Shown here piece by piece: positions 4,016-16,423 of a stretch of 38,354 bases of DNA. Each line of letters begins with the position of its first letter. Position 1 is the first letter of the stretch. The position numbers were made by a program, and so were the translations under genes. The notes beneath the pieces were generated by a model. That model was not told the DNA's origin, made no database searches, and worked only from the letters and a program-made list of their open reading frames with translations. This DNA comes from Parvularculaceae bacterium (GTDB lineage: Bacteria > Pseudomonadota > Alphaproteobacteria > Caulobacterales > Parvularculaceae), in NCBI GenBank assembly GCA_021776465.1, contig JAJFFU010000025.1, forward strand, positions 1 through 38,354. The letters run 5' to 3'.

Positions 4016-5071
4016 TCAAGAGTGCAGCTCCTGAGGGTTTTCTTTTGTCTGTTGGTCTGTGCCGTCGGTTGTGAAAGCAAATTCGAGCGTCTCATTGTAT
4101 CTTGTAAAAACGCGATCAAGCGTACGCCTGAAGCTGTCCCAATTTTCGGCCCCCTTCATCAAGGCGATCACACCAGCGATATGTTCCCGTAGCGCTGGAT
4201 GGCCGTTTTGCGGGTTGAACCATTGATGGTGCTTAGCGGCCCGCTGGCCTGACCTCGTTGTCGGATTCTTTGTTCGCAGCTCTTCCGTGATGCCGGGTGC
4301 GAGACGGTCATATACGAAATCATTCGTCCAGTGAGCGATTACTTGTGGCTTCTTTGTTGTCCACGGTTTCCATTCCCATCCGCGCAGACGGTAGATTTCC
4401 TTGTAGAAATCAAGCGGGAACGTAGGAGCCCACTTTTGTCTTTCTTCGGCAAGATAGTGCTGCAGAATCTTGGCCAGAGCGTCCTTTGCACGAACGTCTT
4501 GATAGCCAGTTGCCTCATCAACGAGAGCAATAATGCCGACCTGCGCGAGGCTGCGCACGACCAAATCCGCGGCCTGCACCATTCGCTCATAGCGAGCGGG
4601 TACAGAGCCGTTCGCTTTCAGGTGGTAATCTCGAAACCGTAGGTAGACCTCAGCTACGCTAGGCAGGGCGCGAGCATCATAGCCGATCCCTTTGCCGCCC
4701 GAGGAAGTTCGGTACAAGATCGGTTTCGTCGACATCAATAAGTCTTGATCTATAAACGGAGAAAACGCTTTTGAAGCGAGGAAGAATGGCGGTTCGTCGA
4801 CCGTCGATAGAACCCCTGTGCCTGCCTTGGGAGACCGCGCCCTGCCCAGTGACCTCAAAAAGCTCGCTTGAGCGATAATCCGCGTGTCAGTGCCTACGAT
4901 AGCGCACGCAATTTCCGAGTCGCCTAACGGAATAGATCCCTCAAGGATCGCCTCTGGTAGATCCTTGTCCCAACGCGAGGCGGCGGCCTTGCGAGCAATC
5001 TCCCGCCGTCGTTCTGGTGTCAGATTTTCGGCACGTGCTTTGCCGCCTTTTGATTGTGCACTATGTGACAT
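4016..5071 (-). CDS. P63C-domain protein
   Basis: 351 aa from the ATG at 5071 (MSHSAQSKGGKA); a 20-residue upstream extension would run through the operator-like repeats and is less likely. The N-terminal segment (SKGGKARAENLTPERRREIARKAAASRW) is a basic, helical motif seen at the start of several mobile-element proteins. The C-terminal half fits the P63C domain as I remember it: FPLDFYKEIYRLRGWEW, then VIAHWTNDFVYDRLAPGI, then KHHQWF...GHPALREHIAGVIALMKGAENWDSFRRTLDR. P63C proteins occur in phages, plasmids and islands; their biochemical role is not established to my knowledge. It is the last gene of the minus-strand cargo run. Repeated GCAAGCA half-sites upstream suggest its own regulation. 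Confidence 0.8.
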   Translation of the reverse strand: MSHSAQSKGGKARAENLTPERRREIARKAAASRWDKDLPEAILEGSIPLGDSEIACAIVGTDTRIIAQASFLRSLGRARSPKAGTGVLSTVDEPPFFLASKAFSPFIDQDLLMSTKPILYRTSSGGKGIGYDARALPSVAEVYLRFRDYHLKANGSVPARYERMVQAADLVVRSLAQVGIIALVDEATGYQDVRAKDALAKILQHYLAEERQKWAPTFPLDFYKEIYRLRGWEWKPWTTKKPQVIAHWTNDFVYDRLAPGITEELRTKNPTTRSGQRAAKHHQWFNPQNGHPALREHIAGVIALMKGAENWDSFRRTLDRVFTRYNETLEFAFTTDGTDQQTKENPQELHS

Positions 5072-5079
5072 TATCGGCC

Positions 5080-5136
5080 TGCTTGCTAATCGCTTCTTGC
5101 AAGCAATATGCTTGCTGACTGGTGCGCGCAAGCATA
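5080..5136 (-). promoter_or_regulatory. GCAAGCA/TGCTTGC repeat cluster upstream of the P63C gene
   Basis: A perfect inverted repeat GCAAGCA-ATA-TGCTTGC (5099-5115) is flanked by single half-sites TGCTTGC (5080-5086) and GCAAGCAT (5128-5135). All lie within 65 bases upstream of the ATG at 5071. The arrangement is typical of a repressor operator with cooperative sites; the binding protein is unknown. Confidence 0.55.
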
Positions 5137-7075: not shown

Positions 7076-7098
7076 TGGTGAATTTGCGTAGTAATGCC
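7076..7098 (-). repeat. Right terminal inverted repeat
   Basis: Read on the minus strand it starts GGCATTACTACGCAAA, then T, then TCACCA, matching the left repeat at 22 of 23 bases. It is followed by the second target copy. Confidence 0.9.
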
Positions 7099-7108
7099 GG
7101 AATTTTCC
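7099..7108. repeat. Right copy of target site duplication
   Basis: GGAATTTTCC is identical to 804-813. The comM frame reads gaa-ttt-tcc-gcc here, so joining base 813 to base 7109 rebuilds PEFS-APVLDSL without gain or loss. Confidence 0.88.
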
Positions 7109-7771
7109 GCCCCTGTGCTCGACAGCCTGCGCCAGCCCCTAGAAACGGGCGACGTCTTGATTGCCCGGGCGAATTTTCATGTGCGCTATCCAGCGCGGTT
7201 TCAGCTCATTGCCGCAATGAACCCATGCAAATGCGGTTTCGGTAAAGCGAGCGGGCGGGCCTGCGGGCGCGGGCCCCATTGCGAGGAAATCTATCAATCG
7301 CGCATTTCCGGGCCACTCCTTGACCGGATGGATATCTCGATCGCGCTGCCGGCGGTAACGGCTGTTGATCTCGCGGGGCCAACAAACGGCGAGCCGACAA
7401 GCACTGTTGCGGCTCGTGTTGCCGAAGCGCGCGCCGCACAAACAGACCGGGCCGGCGCCACCAACGCCGCCCTCGACGACGCAGCCCTAGCGAAGATTGC
7501 CGCGCCGGACGCTGACGGCGCGGCCCTACTTTCCCAGGCGGCGGAAACGCTTGGCCTTTCTGCCCGCGCCTATACACGAATATTGCGCGTATCGCGCACG
7601 CTTGCCGATCTGGACGGGACGACGTCCGTGCGGCGCCGCCATATCGCCGAGGCCGTCAGCTATCGACGACGCGACAGCACCGCTGCGCCAACCGGGTCCG
7701 CTGCGCCAGGCGGGCGCACGTCGCCGCAAATGCGCAGCGAGACCTCGCCGGTGCGCGCAATTCAACGTTAA
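7099..7771 (+). pseudogene. comM: comM, 3' fragment
   Basis: This encodes the missing second half of ComM: APVLDSLRQPLETGDVLIARA, then AAMNPCKCGFG and the GPLLDRMDI segment (sensor region of the AAA+ core). A C-terminal helical domain with SARAYTRILRVSRTLADLDG and IAEAVSYRR follows; the last 35 residues are low-complexity. It has no promoter or start of its own beyond an ATG formed by the inverted repeat (7094), so any product would lack Walker A and Walker B. Together with 1-813 it would make an otherwise full-length ComM. The insertion is clean and both halves keep an open frame, which suggests a recent event. Confidence 0.93.
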
Positions 7772-12598: not shown

Positions 12599-13468
12599 AT
12601 GAAGCGCGCACTTATTATCGCTGGTATTGTTTTCGCCGCAGCCGCCATGTTCGCGGCGTGGCGGCTTGAGCCGCTTTACCTTGGGTGGCTTGCCGGCAAG
12701 ACAGACGCGCAAGATTTGGAAGAACGACAGGCGCTCCTTGCGGGCGCCATTGAAGTCATTGTTCCGGACACGGACGATGAGACGTTTCCAACGGTGTTGA
12801 TGTTTCATGGCTGCGCCGGTCCGCGCAAGCCCTTCCTGCGCCAGTGGGCCGCCGTTTTTAATGACGCCGGTTACGCCGCGATGATCGTCGACAGCACCGG
12901 CCCGCGCGGCTATTCGCGCCAAGACGCCCTTGAGGTTGTGTGCGCCGGAAAGACCTTGCTCGGGCAGGAGCGCGCCGGCGATGTTTTTGCGGCGATCGAA
13001 CTTGCGCGCACCGACCCGCGGCTCGATACGGATCGGTTGCTTCTCGCGGGCTGGTCGCACGGCGCTTGGACGGTGATGGATTTTCTCACGATGGATGGTG
13101 AAAAACGCCGTCCTGCAGGGCTTTCCGGCGACCTCCCTGATGCCGCTAACGTCGGTGGGGTGGTGTTGTTTTACCCCCATTGCGGGACAGGCGCCTTGTC
13201 GCGGTTTCGTCCGTGGCGACAATCACCGCCCGCAATCGCCTTTATCGCCGGCGCCGATACGGTCGTGAAATCGGAAAAGTGTGTTCGGCTGGTCAATCGC
13301 AAAACACGGCGCGGGGCGCCGATCGACATGACCGTTTATCCGGATGCGCAGCATGTTTTCGACGATCCGTTTCTCGAACCTGAATGGCATCATTGGTATA
13401 ATGAAGAAGACCATCAGGATGCGGAGAATCGCTTGCGCGCATTTCTCGGCGACCTTCAGGACGGCTAG
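12599..13468 (+). CDS. Membrane-anchored alpha/beta hydrolase (dienelactone hydrolase-like)
   Basis: 289 aa. One N-terminal TM helix (about 4-21) probably tethers the catalytic domain to the periplasmic face. The triad is visible: nucleophile S153 in GWSHGAW, D220 in IAGADTVV and H252 in [14 protein letters not shown] (69-74) would form the oxyanion hole. The HGCxG and GWSxG pattern fits the dienelactone hydrolase-like branch, but substrate cannot be deduced. GGAAGAA stands before the ATG. The gene ends in a 4-base overlap (CTAG) with the convergent coaE. Confidence 0.85.
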
Positions 13469-14070
13469 CGCTGCTTGGGGCCTTTTTCGATAATCGCGTC
13501 ATAGGCCGCCTTAATGTCATCGGCCATCGCATCAATCGGCTGGTCTGACGATATGACGTAATCAGCGCCGGCGCGTTTTTCCGCATCCGGCATTTGTTGC
13601 GCAAGGATGGCGGCAAGCTTTTCTTCGGTCATGCCGGTGCGCGCGAGCACGCGTTCGCGCTGAACATCTTCCGGGGCGCTGACGACAACGACGGCGTCGA
13701 AAAGACCCTCAGCGCCATTTTCAAACAAAAGCGGGATATCCAAAACCACGGCCGGCGCGCCCGTCGCGGCCGCCTCAACAAGAAACCCCGCCTGATCGCG
13801 CCCAACAAGCGGATGGACGATCGCTTCGAGGGTTTTCAGCTTATCTGGATCGTTGAGCACAATTTTGGCGAGGGCCGGTCGATCAATGGCGCCATCGACA
13901 ACCACACCGGGGAAAGCTGCCCCGATGGGCGCGACCGCGGCCCCGCCGGCGGCATACATCCGGTGGACAGCGTCATCGGCGTCCCAGACTGCAGCGCCCA
14001 GTTCTGCAAACATTTTCAGCGCGGTTGATTTGCCCATGCCGATGGACCCGGTAAGGCCAATGCTAATCAT
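13465..14070 (-). CDS. coaE: Dephospho-CoA kinase
   Basis: 201 aa, the usual length. CoaE phosphorylates the 3'-OH of dephospho-CoA, the last step of coenzyme A synthesis. The P-loop is GSIGMGKS (8-15), followed by the substrate-binding [10 protein letters not shown], the IVHPLV segment and the LFENG motif, all characteristic. Its start overlaps the end of the maf-aroE fusion by 8 bases, so it is translationally coupled to it in the ppsR-maf/aroE-coaE order common in alphaproteobacteria. Confidence 0.96.
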
Positions 14071-15538
14071 GTTGCTTCTCGTTTTTCAGCGCTTCCACCA
14101 TGAGGTCGCGCAAATCATCGTCGACCTGCGGCTTCAGCCGGTAGGGCCGGTTGCCGAACCACGCAGAAAAACCCGGCGCGGCCTGATGCATGAGCATTTC
14201 AAGCCCGTTGATAACGGCAAGTCCGCGCGCGCGCGCCGCTTTTAACAGCGGCGTTTCCAGCGGCGTATAGACGATATCGAATACTGTTGCTTTGTTGGGC
14301 AGGCCGGCAAGATCAATTTCCAGCGCCGGTTGTCCCGTCATACCGAGCGAGGTTGTGTTAACGAGAAGATCGCAGTCAGCGAGCCCCGATGGCTGCGCCG
14401 ACCAGTCTATGACTTCGAGCCCGAACTCTTCTCCGAGCGCCTCGGCCTTTTCGCGCGTTCGGTTTGCAATGATGATGCGCTTGCACCCGACACTGCGAAG
14501 CGCCGCAATCACGCCGCGCGCCCCGCCGCCAGCGCCCAACACCATCGCCGTTTCCATTCTGTGTGAAGCTGACGGGCTTTTCGCCAACGCTTGCGCAAAA
14601 CCCGCCGCGTCGGAATTGTCTGCGTAAGTCCCGTCTTCCCCGAAAGACAGCATGTTCGCCGCACCGATCGTTGTCGCTGCATCGCTCGCCCGGTCGGCAT
14701 ATCTCAAGGCGTTTTCCTTGTGGGGGATCGTGACATTGACGCCGGCAAAACCCAGCTCTCGCAAGTCGTTCATGGCTTCAGCGAAGGCGTCGTAGCCGGG
14801 CGCTACTTCGATGGTTCGGTACTGCCCCGCAACGCCGGACCGGCGGACCCATTCATTATGGATCAGCGGCGACAAGGAGTGGGAAATCGGGAAGCCGACA
14901 ACGCCCGCGAAAACGGGCTGCGGGTTTTTCCATTCCTCACCGAAAGCGCCCTGTCGGCGCAGCTCCGCGAGCAACGGGTTTACCGCAATTCCCTGTACCG
15001 CGAACCAGTCACCGTTGATGGCGTTAAAAAGCGAGGCGCCCAATGGGGTTTCAACCTGATAGGCGCCGACGCTGAGCAAGACCTCGTCGCCAGCGGCCTC
15101 TATGTAAGCATCAATTTCGGCGCTGGTCATACTGCGTATGGTCAGGCTTGGGCGCTCCAGATTGCGCCAGATGATTTCGCCGCCGCGCGCAGCAACAGTG
15201 GCGTTGATGAGGGTGTGGGTTTTCCCTTGCATCTCATGCAGTCGCGCTTTGGCCTCGGCCATATCGCGGGGTTTGTCGTAAGCGCGGCCTTCGAATTCGA
15301 GGATCTGGTCGGCCCCGATGACGAAACCATCTTGTGTCTTCGCAACGGCCATACATTTTGCATCGGCCAGACCCATGGCCATGTCCTCAAGTCCGAGTCC
15401 AGCCTTCATAGCCTCACTCTTGATAATGGACTCATCCACACCCGGTTTCGCGACCTGAAAATCAACGCCATGGGCTTTTAAGATCGCAGCGCGGATCGCG
15501 CTACCTGATGCGAGTGTAATGGTTGGCGTTTCGCTCAT
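14063..15538 (-). CDS. maf-aroE: Maf nucleotide pyrophosphatase fused to shikimate dehydrogenase (AroE)
   Basis: 491 aa in one uninterrupted frame. Residues 1-200 are a Maf/YceF-type domain, hydrolysing non-canonical or m7G nucleoside triphosphates: LASGSAIR (9-16), the catalytic-site VIGADQIL (73-80), YDKP (87-90) and GAYQVET (158-164). Residues 208-491 are AroE, which reduces 3-dehydroshikimate with [17 protein letters not shown] (213-224), catalytic K274 in TIPHKEN, D310 in [17 protein letters not shown] (335-343), ANRT (358-361) and a C-terminal GLEMLMHQA. In alphaproteobacteria these are normally separate adjacent genes; the junction ([16 protein letters not shown]) has no stop and no ATG, so fusion is seen directly. 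Both active sites look intact. A base error removing a stop is the alternative. Confidence 0.92.
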
Positions 15539-15544
15539 CGGGCT

Positions 15545-16423
15545 CTATCGATTCTGGCGGGCGGAAAGTTTCGTCAGGATGGAGGCGGCTGTTTCCTCGA
15601 CCGATTTGCGGGTGACATCGATCATCGGCCAGCCATGTTTTGCGTAAAGCCGCTTGGCGCGCAGCACTTCCGCGCGGATTGTGTCGAGATCAGAATATTC
15701 ATCCGCCGCGCCGACCGCATTGATCCCGCCCAAGCGGCTCTTGCGAATTTGCGCCAGTCGTTCAGGGCTTGCGACAAGACCAACCACGAGCGGTTTTCGC
15801 AACTCAAAAAGTTCCGGCGGGGGGTCGGCGGTTGGCACGAGCGGCACGTTCGCCGCCTTGATGCCGCGGTTTGCCAGATACATGCAGGTCGGGGTTTTCG
15901 AGGTGCGGCTGACACCGACCAGAACCACATCGGCCGAAGCGAGGTCCCAGTTCATCTGGCCGTCATCGTGAGACAGCGTGTAATCGAGGGCTGCGATCCG
16001 CGTGAAATACCGATCGTCCAATTCGTGCTGGGCGCCCGGTTTTTTCGTCTGCTCAAGGCCGAGATAATCCGTGAAAGCATCCAACATGGGATCGAGGACG
16101 GAAACCGCCGGCGTCTGTAATTCGCTGCAACGTATTTCCAACAGGCGACGAAGATCGGGATTGATCACTGTATAAAGGACGATACCGGGCGCGGCTTCTA
16201 TCGCGGCGAGCGTGCGCTCCATCTGCCGGGGCGAACGAACAAGCGCGTAGATATGTTCAAGGGGTTTGGCGTGGGCAAATTGCGACGCTGTCGCCTTCAA
16301 CATGGCGTTCAGGGTTTCGCCCGTCGAATCCGAAACCAGATGAACATGGAAATAGGTGGCAAGCGGCACAGACAGCGCGCTTTCTTTTTCTTCCACTTTT
16401 TCCGCATCATCACTGGACATCAC
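15545..16423 (-). CDS. ppsR: Pyruvate phosphate dikinase/PEP synthase regulatory protein (DUF299)
   Basis: 292 aa. The family is a bifunctional ADP-dependent kinase and Pi-dependent pyrophosphorylase that switches PEP synthase or pyruvate phosphate dikinase off and on by threonine phosphorylation; in alphaproteobacteria the target is usually the dikinase. Visible markers are FHVHLVSDSTGETLN (25-39), the P-loop-like GVSRTSKTPTCMYLANRGIKAANVPLV (170-196) and the C-terminal KSVEETAASIL. An acidic N-terminal stretch (DDAEKVEEKES) is extra. It is the first gene of the minus-strand operon with maf-aroE and coaE (6-base gap) and is divergent from hemE. Several in-frame starts exist at MMSSDD. Confidence 0.93.
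   Translation of the reverse strand: MMSSDDAEKVEEKESALSVPLATYFHVHLVSDSTGETLNAMLKATASQFAHAKPLEHIYALVRSPRQMERTLAAIEAAPGIVLYTVINPDLRRLLEIRCSELQTPAVSVLDPMLDAFTDYLGLEQTKKPGAQHELDDRYFTRIAALDYTLSHDDGQMNWDLASADVVLVGVSRTSKTPTCMYLANRGIKAANVPLVPTADPPPELFELRKPLVVGLVASPERLAQIRKSRLGGINAVGAADEYSDLDTIRAEVLRAKRLYAKHGWPMIDVTRKSVEETAASILTKLSARQNR

Follow-up and report, generated by a model that had tools for sequence, protein, structure and literature searches.

A Maf-shikimate dehydrogenase fusion gene in Parvularculaceae, probably formed by the joining of two neighbouring genes

Both Maf, of a family that clears abnormal nucleotides, and shikimate dehydrogenase (AroE), which forms an intermediate on the way to the aromatic amino acids, are found joined to other enzymes. 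Human ASMTL combines Maf with a predicted methyltransferase domain, and the source that describes it gives the Maf active-site signature as S-R-E-K-D-K and the subfamily motifs as R-T-Q in YhdE and W-Q-E in YceF (PMC3899018). AroD-AroE fusions are recorded from plants, some archaea, Planctomycetes and Acidobacteria in a second source (PMC11237513), and the pentafunctional AROM protein and a chorismate mutase-AroE fusion are among the solved structures matched in the PDB. The Maf-AroE gene described here resembles ASMTL in that a Maf at the N terminus precedes a second enzyme domain, but ASMTL is eukaryotic, its Maf is YhdE-like and its partner is unrelated. It resembles AroD-AroE and AROM in carrying AroE within a fused enzyme, but their partners belong to the same pathway, whereas Maf lies outside it. 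No paper pairing Maf with shikimate dehydrogenase or aroE was found in the open-access literature, although unpublished annotation may exist. The gene is regarded as a real fusion and a new pairing, of a kind already familiar.

The fusion lies in a window, here the whole stretch of 38,354 nucleotides analysed, which is contig C158 (JAJFFU010000025.1) of assembly GCA_021776465.1 from a Parvularculaceae bacterium, a draft of 3.43 Mb in 250 contigs that is 83% complete and 3.5% contaminated. A single stop-free frame (Table 1) holds Pfam matches to Maf (PF02545, 124.7 bits against a cut-off of 27, covering profile positions 2-186 of 187), Shikimate_dh_N (PF08501, residues 213-296, 91.7 bits against 27) and Shikimate_DH (PF01488, residues 318-397, 42.3 bits against 24.3), and the protein also exceeds the curated cut-offs of the equivalog AroE models NF001312 (318.7 bits, cut-off 295) and TIGR00507 (220.8 bits, cut-off 200.2). 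The single-gene fusion of maf and aroE proposed in the initial annotation is thereby borne out, with one open frame, both domains complete and the two genes neighbours in relatives, and the residues it had listed as kept (Maf D77, AroE K274 and D310) are all in place. The source assembly has one match to PF08501, which is the fusion gene; since the draft is fragmented and 83% complete, a second aroE could be missing from it. A second Maf is encoded in the same assembly on contig C179.

Table 1. Positions, within the window, of the fusion gene, its parts and the flanking genes.
Feature	Positions	Strand	Extent or remark
Maf-AroE fusion gene	14063..15538	-	491 codons + stop
Maf domain	14954..15520	-	residues 7-195
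Linker	14909..14953	-	residues 196-210, about 15 residues
AroE (shikimate dehydrogenase) domains	14144..14908	-	residues 211-465 (about)
C-terminal tail of fusion protein	14066..14143	-	residues 466-491
coaE, dephospho-CoA kinase	13465..14070	-	8-nt overlap with end of fusion gene
Kinase/pyrophosphorylase gene (PF03618), presumably ppsR-like	15545..16423	-	ends 6 nt before fusion gene

The Maf half carries the complete signature (S13, R16, E36, K61, D77 and K89), which is intact in 30/30 Mafs aligned. At the subfamily positions it reads I-Q-E (I15, Q78 and E163), agreeing with two of the three YceF positions, and the remaining 29 aligned Mafs, whether adjacent or fused, share the same nine signature and subfamily residues. 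The second Maf reads R-T-Q, the YhdE pattern. Because of this difference in residues, the fused copy is classed as a YceF-like paralogue and the separate copy retained by the genome as YhdE-like. The fused copy shares with E. coli YceF and its subfamily (PF02545) the full signature and the YceF-type Q and E, but differs in being joined to AroE and in a divergent first subfamily position, where Ile replaces the aromatic residue. It is predicted from these residues to be an m7GTP-type nucleotide pyrophosphatase. The structural matches reported below are all AroE chains, and the family membership of the Maf half rests on sequence.

In the AroE half, K274, D310, GAGGGARG and NRT are all present. 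K274 and D310, which are presumably the catalytic Lys and Asp, are invariant in 29/29 AroEs aligned, and the NRT motif is taken to suggest NADP, such that the domain is predicted to be an NADP-type shikimate dehydrogenase. An AlphaFold2 model of the fusion, computed from an alignment of 41 proteins from the window and the loci, reached a pLDDT of 94.7 and a pTM of 0.90, with the linker modelled as an ordered block (pLDDT 93-96). Residues 205-486 of the model align to solved AroE chains with Z up to 29.9, the value for 2egg (274 residues, rmsd 2.0); 1wxd is likewise an AroE. The fused copy differs from known AroE in the Maf domain at its N end and, in the window, in lacking ATG, GTG and TTG at the junction. 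As a separate observation, the AroE of one unfused genome, G013 (L020 / L123), reads NTD where the 28 other aligned AroEs read NSD.

The same domain order was sought in related genomes and was found stop-free in four other members of the genus, giving an open Maf-to-AroE frame in 5/28 genus genomes: the window genome (G000), G015, G023, G018 and G012, with 75%, 70%, 67% and 59% identity to the window fusion for the last four, respectively. Public-record matches include a Marinicaulis MAG (70% identity; Marinicaulis is placed under Hyphococcus, Parvularculaceae) and an uncultured Parvularculaceae MAG (67%); on the strength of these two, the family of the genomes compared is taken to be Parvularculaceae. 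The five fusions align without gaps over Maf, linker and AroE N domain, with equal linker length in all and mean pairwise identities of 0.66, 0.59 and 0.70, respectively. Codon position 3 varies most (0.56 in Maf, 0.55 in AroE and 0.45 in the linker), as expected of translated sequence, the contrast being weaker over the 15 codons of the linker, where positions 1 and 2 vary at 0.34 and 0.27. A frame left open by chance is excluded by stop-free reading in five genomes at this range of identity, by the gapless alignment and by the variation at position 3.

Among 62 genomes of the family that were searched, these five alone are fused. In an order sample of 398 genomes, the matches listed were stop-free only in the five and in G607 (discussed below). 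In a sample of 385 genomes from the class, the window alone was stop-free at full length among the matches listed, the 13 other full-length in-frame matches each having at least one stop, and ten genomes of another order had no fusion among the matches listed; a weak or very divergent fusion could escape the matches listed for class and order.

The two genes lie together but unfused in 22/28 genus genomes, in agreement with the initial annotation, which had described maf and aroE as adjacent separate genes elsewhere. In 20 of these the genes are in different frames, ten with a 1-nt overlap, one with a 4-nt overlap and TTG, eight with a 1-nt gap and one with a 2-nt gap, taking the start nearest the maf stop, and ATG where present. 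In the other two (G002 and G042) TAA is followed directly by ATG in the same frame, so that altering the one stop codon would suffice to make the frame continuous. In the remaining genus genome, G014, aroE was not found beside maf. Over the family, 53/55 unfused genomes (the exceptions being G044 and G058) have a candidate aroE start between -4 and +6 nt relative to the base at which the maf stop begins; these junction counts leave out G014 and G046, in which a piece of aroE lies at a contig edge. Where contigs extend far enough, members of the genus share the order coaE-aroE-maf-ppsR-hemE-hemJ-rho, and adoK was not found near the locus in the two outgroup genomes. The point of joining is also visible in the proteins: 12/22 unfused genus Mafs end in G-A-L-x-F-stop, the fused genomes read G-[AV]-[FL]-G-E-x-[WM] at the same place, and G012 has GAA at the would-be stop and Met at the would-be aroE start. 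A stop and restart at this position in sister genomes had been named beforehand as grounds for rejecting the fusion. That state was indeed found in 22 of the 27 other genus genomes, but because four others share the open frame it bears on the age of the fusion and not on its reality. The pairing had likewise been called unexpected, a view weakened by the abutting genes of the family, whose physical joining needs no metabolic tie.

Very probably, the gene arose by operon fusion of two neighbouring genes whose enzymes work independently. This reading is based on the open frame in five genomes, the intact signatures, the gene order and the separate neighbours in relatives. Coupling by termination and re-initiation requires short spacings, and within the conserved ppsR-maf-aroE-coaE run maf and aroE were probably translationally coupled before joining. 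They would then have shifted into one frame, as in the TAA-ATG arrangement of two relatives today, and loss of the stop codon would have let the ribosome read from Maf into AroE. The product, if made and left uncleaved, would have a mass of about 52 kDa, the figure given in the initial annotation, and comprise a YceF-like Maf and a shikimate dehydrogenase, each presumably active on its own. The gain, if any, would be two enzymes in equal amounts without the need for re-initiation.

The same gene run has been joined elsewhere in the family. The AroE frame continues for about 200 residues in nine genomes that belong to three other genera (G053-G056 and G058; G059; G075-G077), reaching 471-485 aa from the domain start (L052, L053, L055, L058, L063, L066, L067, L069 and L070), and the extra part scored above the Pfam cut-off for CoaE in 5/5 tested (G055, G053, G075, G059 and G058). 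These AroE-CoaE frames, with CoaE confirmed in five of the nine, resemble Maf-AroE as a join of neighbours involving aroE, but they occur in other genera and on the opposite side of aroE. The joining of aroE to the left or to the right in different lineages supports proximity as the cause. One family thus holds a series that comprises overlapping separate genes, an in-frame stop-start, Maf-AroE, and AroE-CoaE on the other side, and this natural series makes the question of proximity versus function in gene fusion testable.

A single origin of the fusion is contested by the trees. In the Maf+AroE tree, built from 39 of the 66 loci that have both domains, the five fusions are united (99/96) with the unfused G013 as sister. 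In the rpoB+rpoC+gyrB tree, from which G018 was left out for lack of columns, G013 groups with G000, G015 and G023 at 100/100, G012 stands apart in an unresolved position, and a clade of the four fused genomes present is rejected (AU p 0.0001). Six neighbour genes, with G018 included, give the same arrangement at 100/100 and also reject a fused clade (AU p 0.0003). A clade of the fused genomes plus G013 is rejected neither by the markers (p 0.235) nor by the neighbour genes (p 0.316), and on the Maf+AroE data the species arrangement, with G013 beside the core group (G000, G015, G023 and G018), is marginally rejected (AU p 0.045). In the Maf-only tree G013 falls with the core (83/90) and in the AroE-only tree the five are united (93/97), the opposite arrangement being unrejected in each (p 0.36 and 0.21, respectively). 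With the unfused G013 nested among fused genomes, the history includes loss, transfer or a second fusion. The suggestion that the fusion could be a lineage marker therefore stands only in part, since marker and neighbour-gene trees put an unfused genome inside the fused set.

One origin is favoured by the identical linker lengths and by the GE common to the fusions; in that case G013 perhaps lost the fusion, possibly by replacement, or G012 perhaps received it. Separate fusion events in G012 and in the core group are a possible but rather doubtful history. They agree with the 100/100 placement of G013 with the core and the rejection of a fused clade, and the scattered TAA-ATG states of G002 and G042, which stand apart in the trees, make fusion look easy. 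The near-private residues are divided, AroE having four common to core and G013 against two common to core and G012, and Maf having three common to core and G012 against one common to core and G013. Besides the common linker and GE, two fusions are opposed by the support of 99/96 for the five in the Maf+AroE tree, although the alternative is rejected there only marginally, and by the best matches of the G012 Maf and AroE among the fetched loci, self aside, which are core genomes. A donor of the G013 aroE was not found among the fetched loci. The aroE frame of G060 (L043) contains an internal TGA, such that this gene is broken or misread in the draft; its AroE was read with X in the near-private comparison and is absent from the Maf+AroE, neighbour-gene and single-gene trees.

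Selection for a common process served by Maf and AroE is an improbable origin of the fusion; such a process might link the quality control of nucleotides to aromatic, PEP or NADPH metabolism, or the two might form an ordered two-domain enzyme whose halves communicate. PEP synthase is regulated by ppsR-type proteins, PEP is an input to the shikimate pathway, and ppsR stands beside maf and aroE in the genus, the latter two being kept together across the family; all of this could be read as coupling, as could the ordered linker and whole-chain pTM of the model and the persistence of the fusion between proteins just 57-59% identical. To our knowledge, Maf and AroE share no substrate or product, and we know of nothing linking an m7GTP-type pyrophosphatase to shikimate, which counts against it. 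The genes are also separate neighbours in most of the genus, and elsewhere in the family aroE is joined to coaE, an indication that position mattered more than the identity of the partner; the literature search yielded no paper that connects Maf with AroE. One study finds short overlaps between genes to be over-represented where the products are subunits of a complex (PMC10666635), a point that favours coupling and opposes an operon fusion without functional tie. Likewise improbable is an enzyme that is obligately bifunctional, with Maf and AroE fixed in arrangement and influencing each other; if true, this would reveal a connection, so far unrecognised, between the clearing of modified nucleotides and the shikimate pathway. 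The case also serves as a caution that fusion-based (Rosetta-stone) inference could wrongly tie Maf to aromatic synthesis.

The fused chain may be cleaved, or AroE may be initiated internally. In the window, in-frame ATG, GTG and TTG are absent between residues 190 and 221, with TTG at 189 and 222, and in G015 and G023 they are absent from 186 to 222; judged from these codons, three of the five fusions are unlikely to have a start of their own for AroE at the junction. The flanking TTG codons of the window and the candidate GTG, ATG and TTG starts near the junction in G018 and G012 would permit internal initiation, but none of these candidates has GGAG, GAGG or AGGA just upstream.

A sequencing or assembly artefact at the junction, of the kind suggested by the apparent fusion in G607 with its conserved Maf C-terminal block out of frame, can be dismissed with near certainty, because the window junction is common to four other genomes, and all five separate assemblies have linkers of one length and an in-frame Maf C-terminus; two of these assemblies are also named public records.

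G607 (family f4) was considered as an independent fusion on account of its stop-free match. Its Maf C-terminal block is replaced by out-of-frame residues, so it is not a comparable fusion, and the 16 relatives examined (17 loci including G607, out of 30 genomes searched) have maf and aroE in different frames; the case is probably a frameshift from assembly error, judging by its residues.

Other long frames were seen in the surveys. Five genomes of genus g58, from the order of G415 (L239, L241, L242, L243 and L244), have a match that breaks in AroE at about residue 320-345 and resumes separately, within open frames of 552-645 aa that may be due to additional sequence, to a frameshift or to a further fusion. 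The class survey also contained AroE frames near 500 aa among the matches listed.

Elsewhere in the window, a Mg-chelatase gene, presumably comM/YifB-like, is split into pieces at 34-843 and 7094-7771, both matching Pfam Mg_chelatase. The intervening segment of about 6.3 kb, which looks like an inserted mobile element, encodes an IS1595-type transposase (1559-2509) and a P63C-domain protein (4016-5131), and a 14-nt direct repeat occurs at 801 and 7096.
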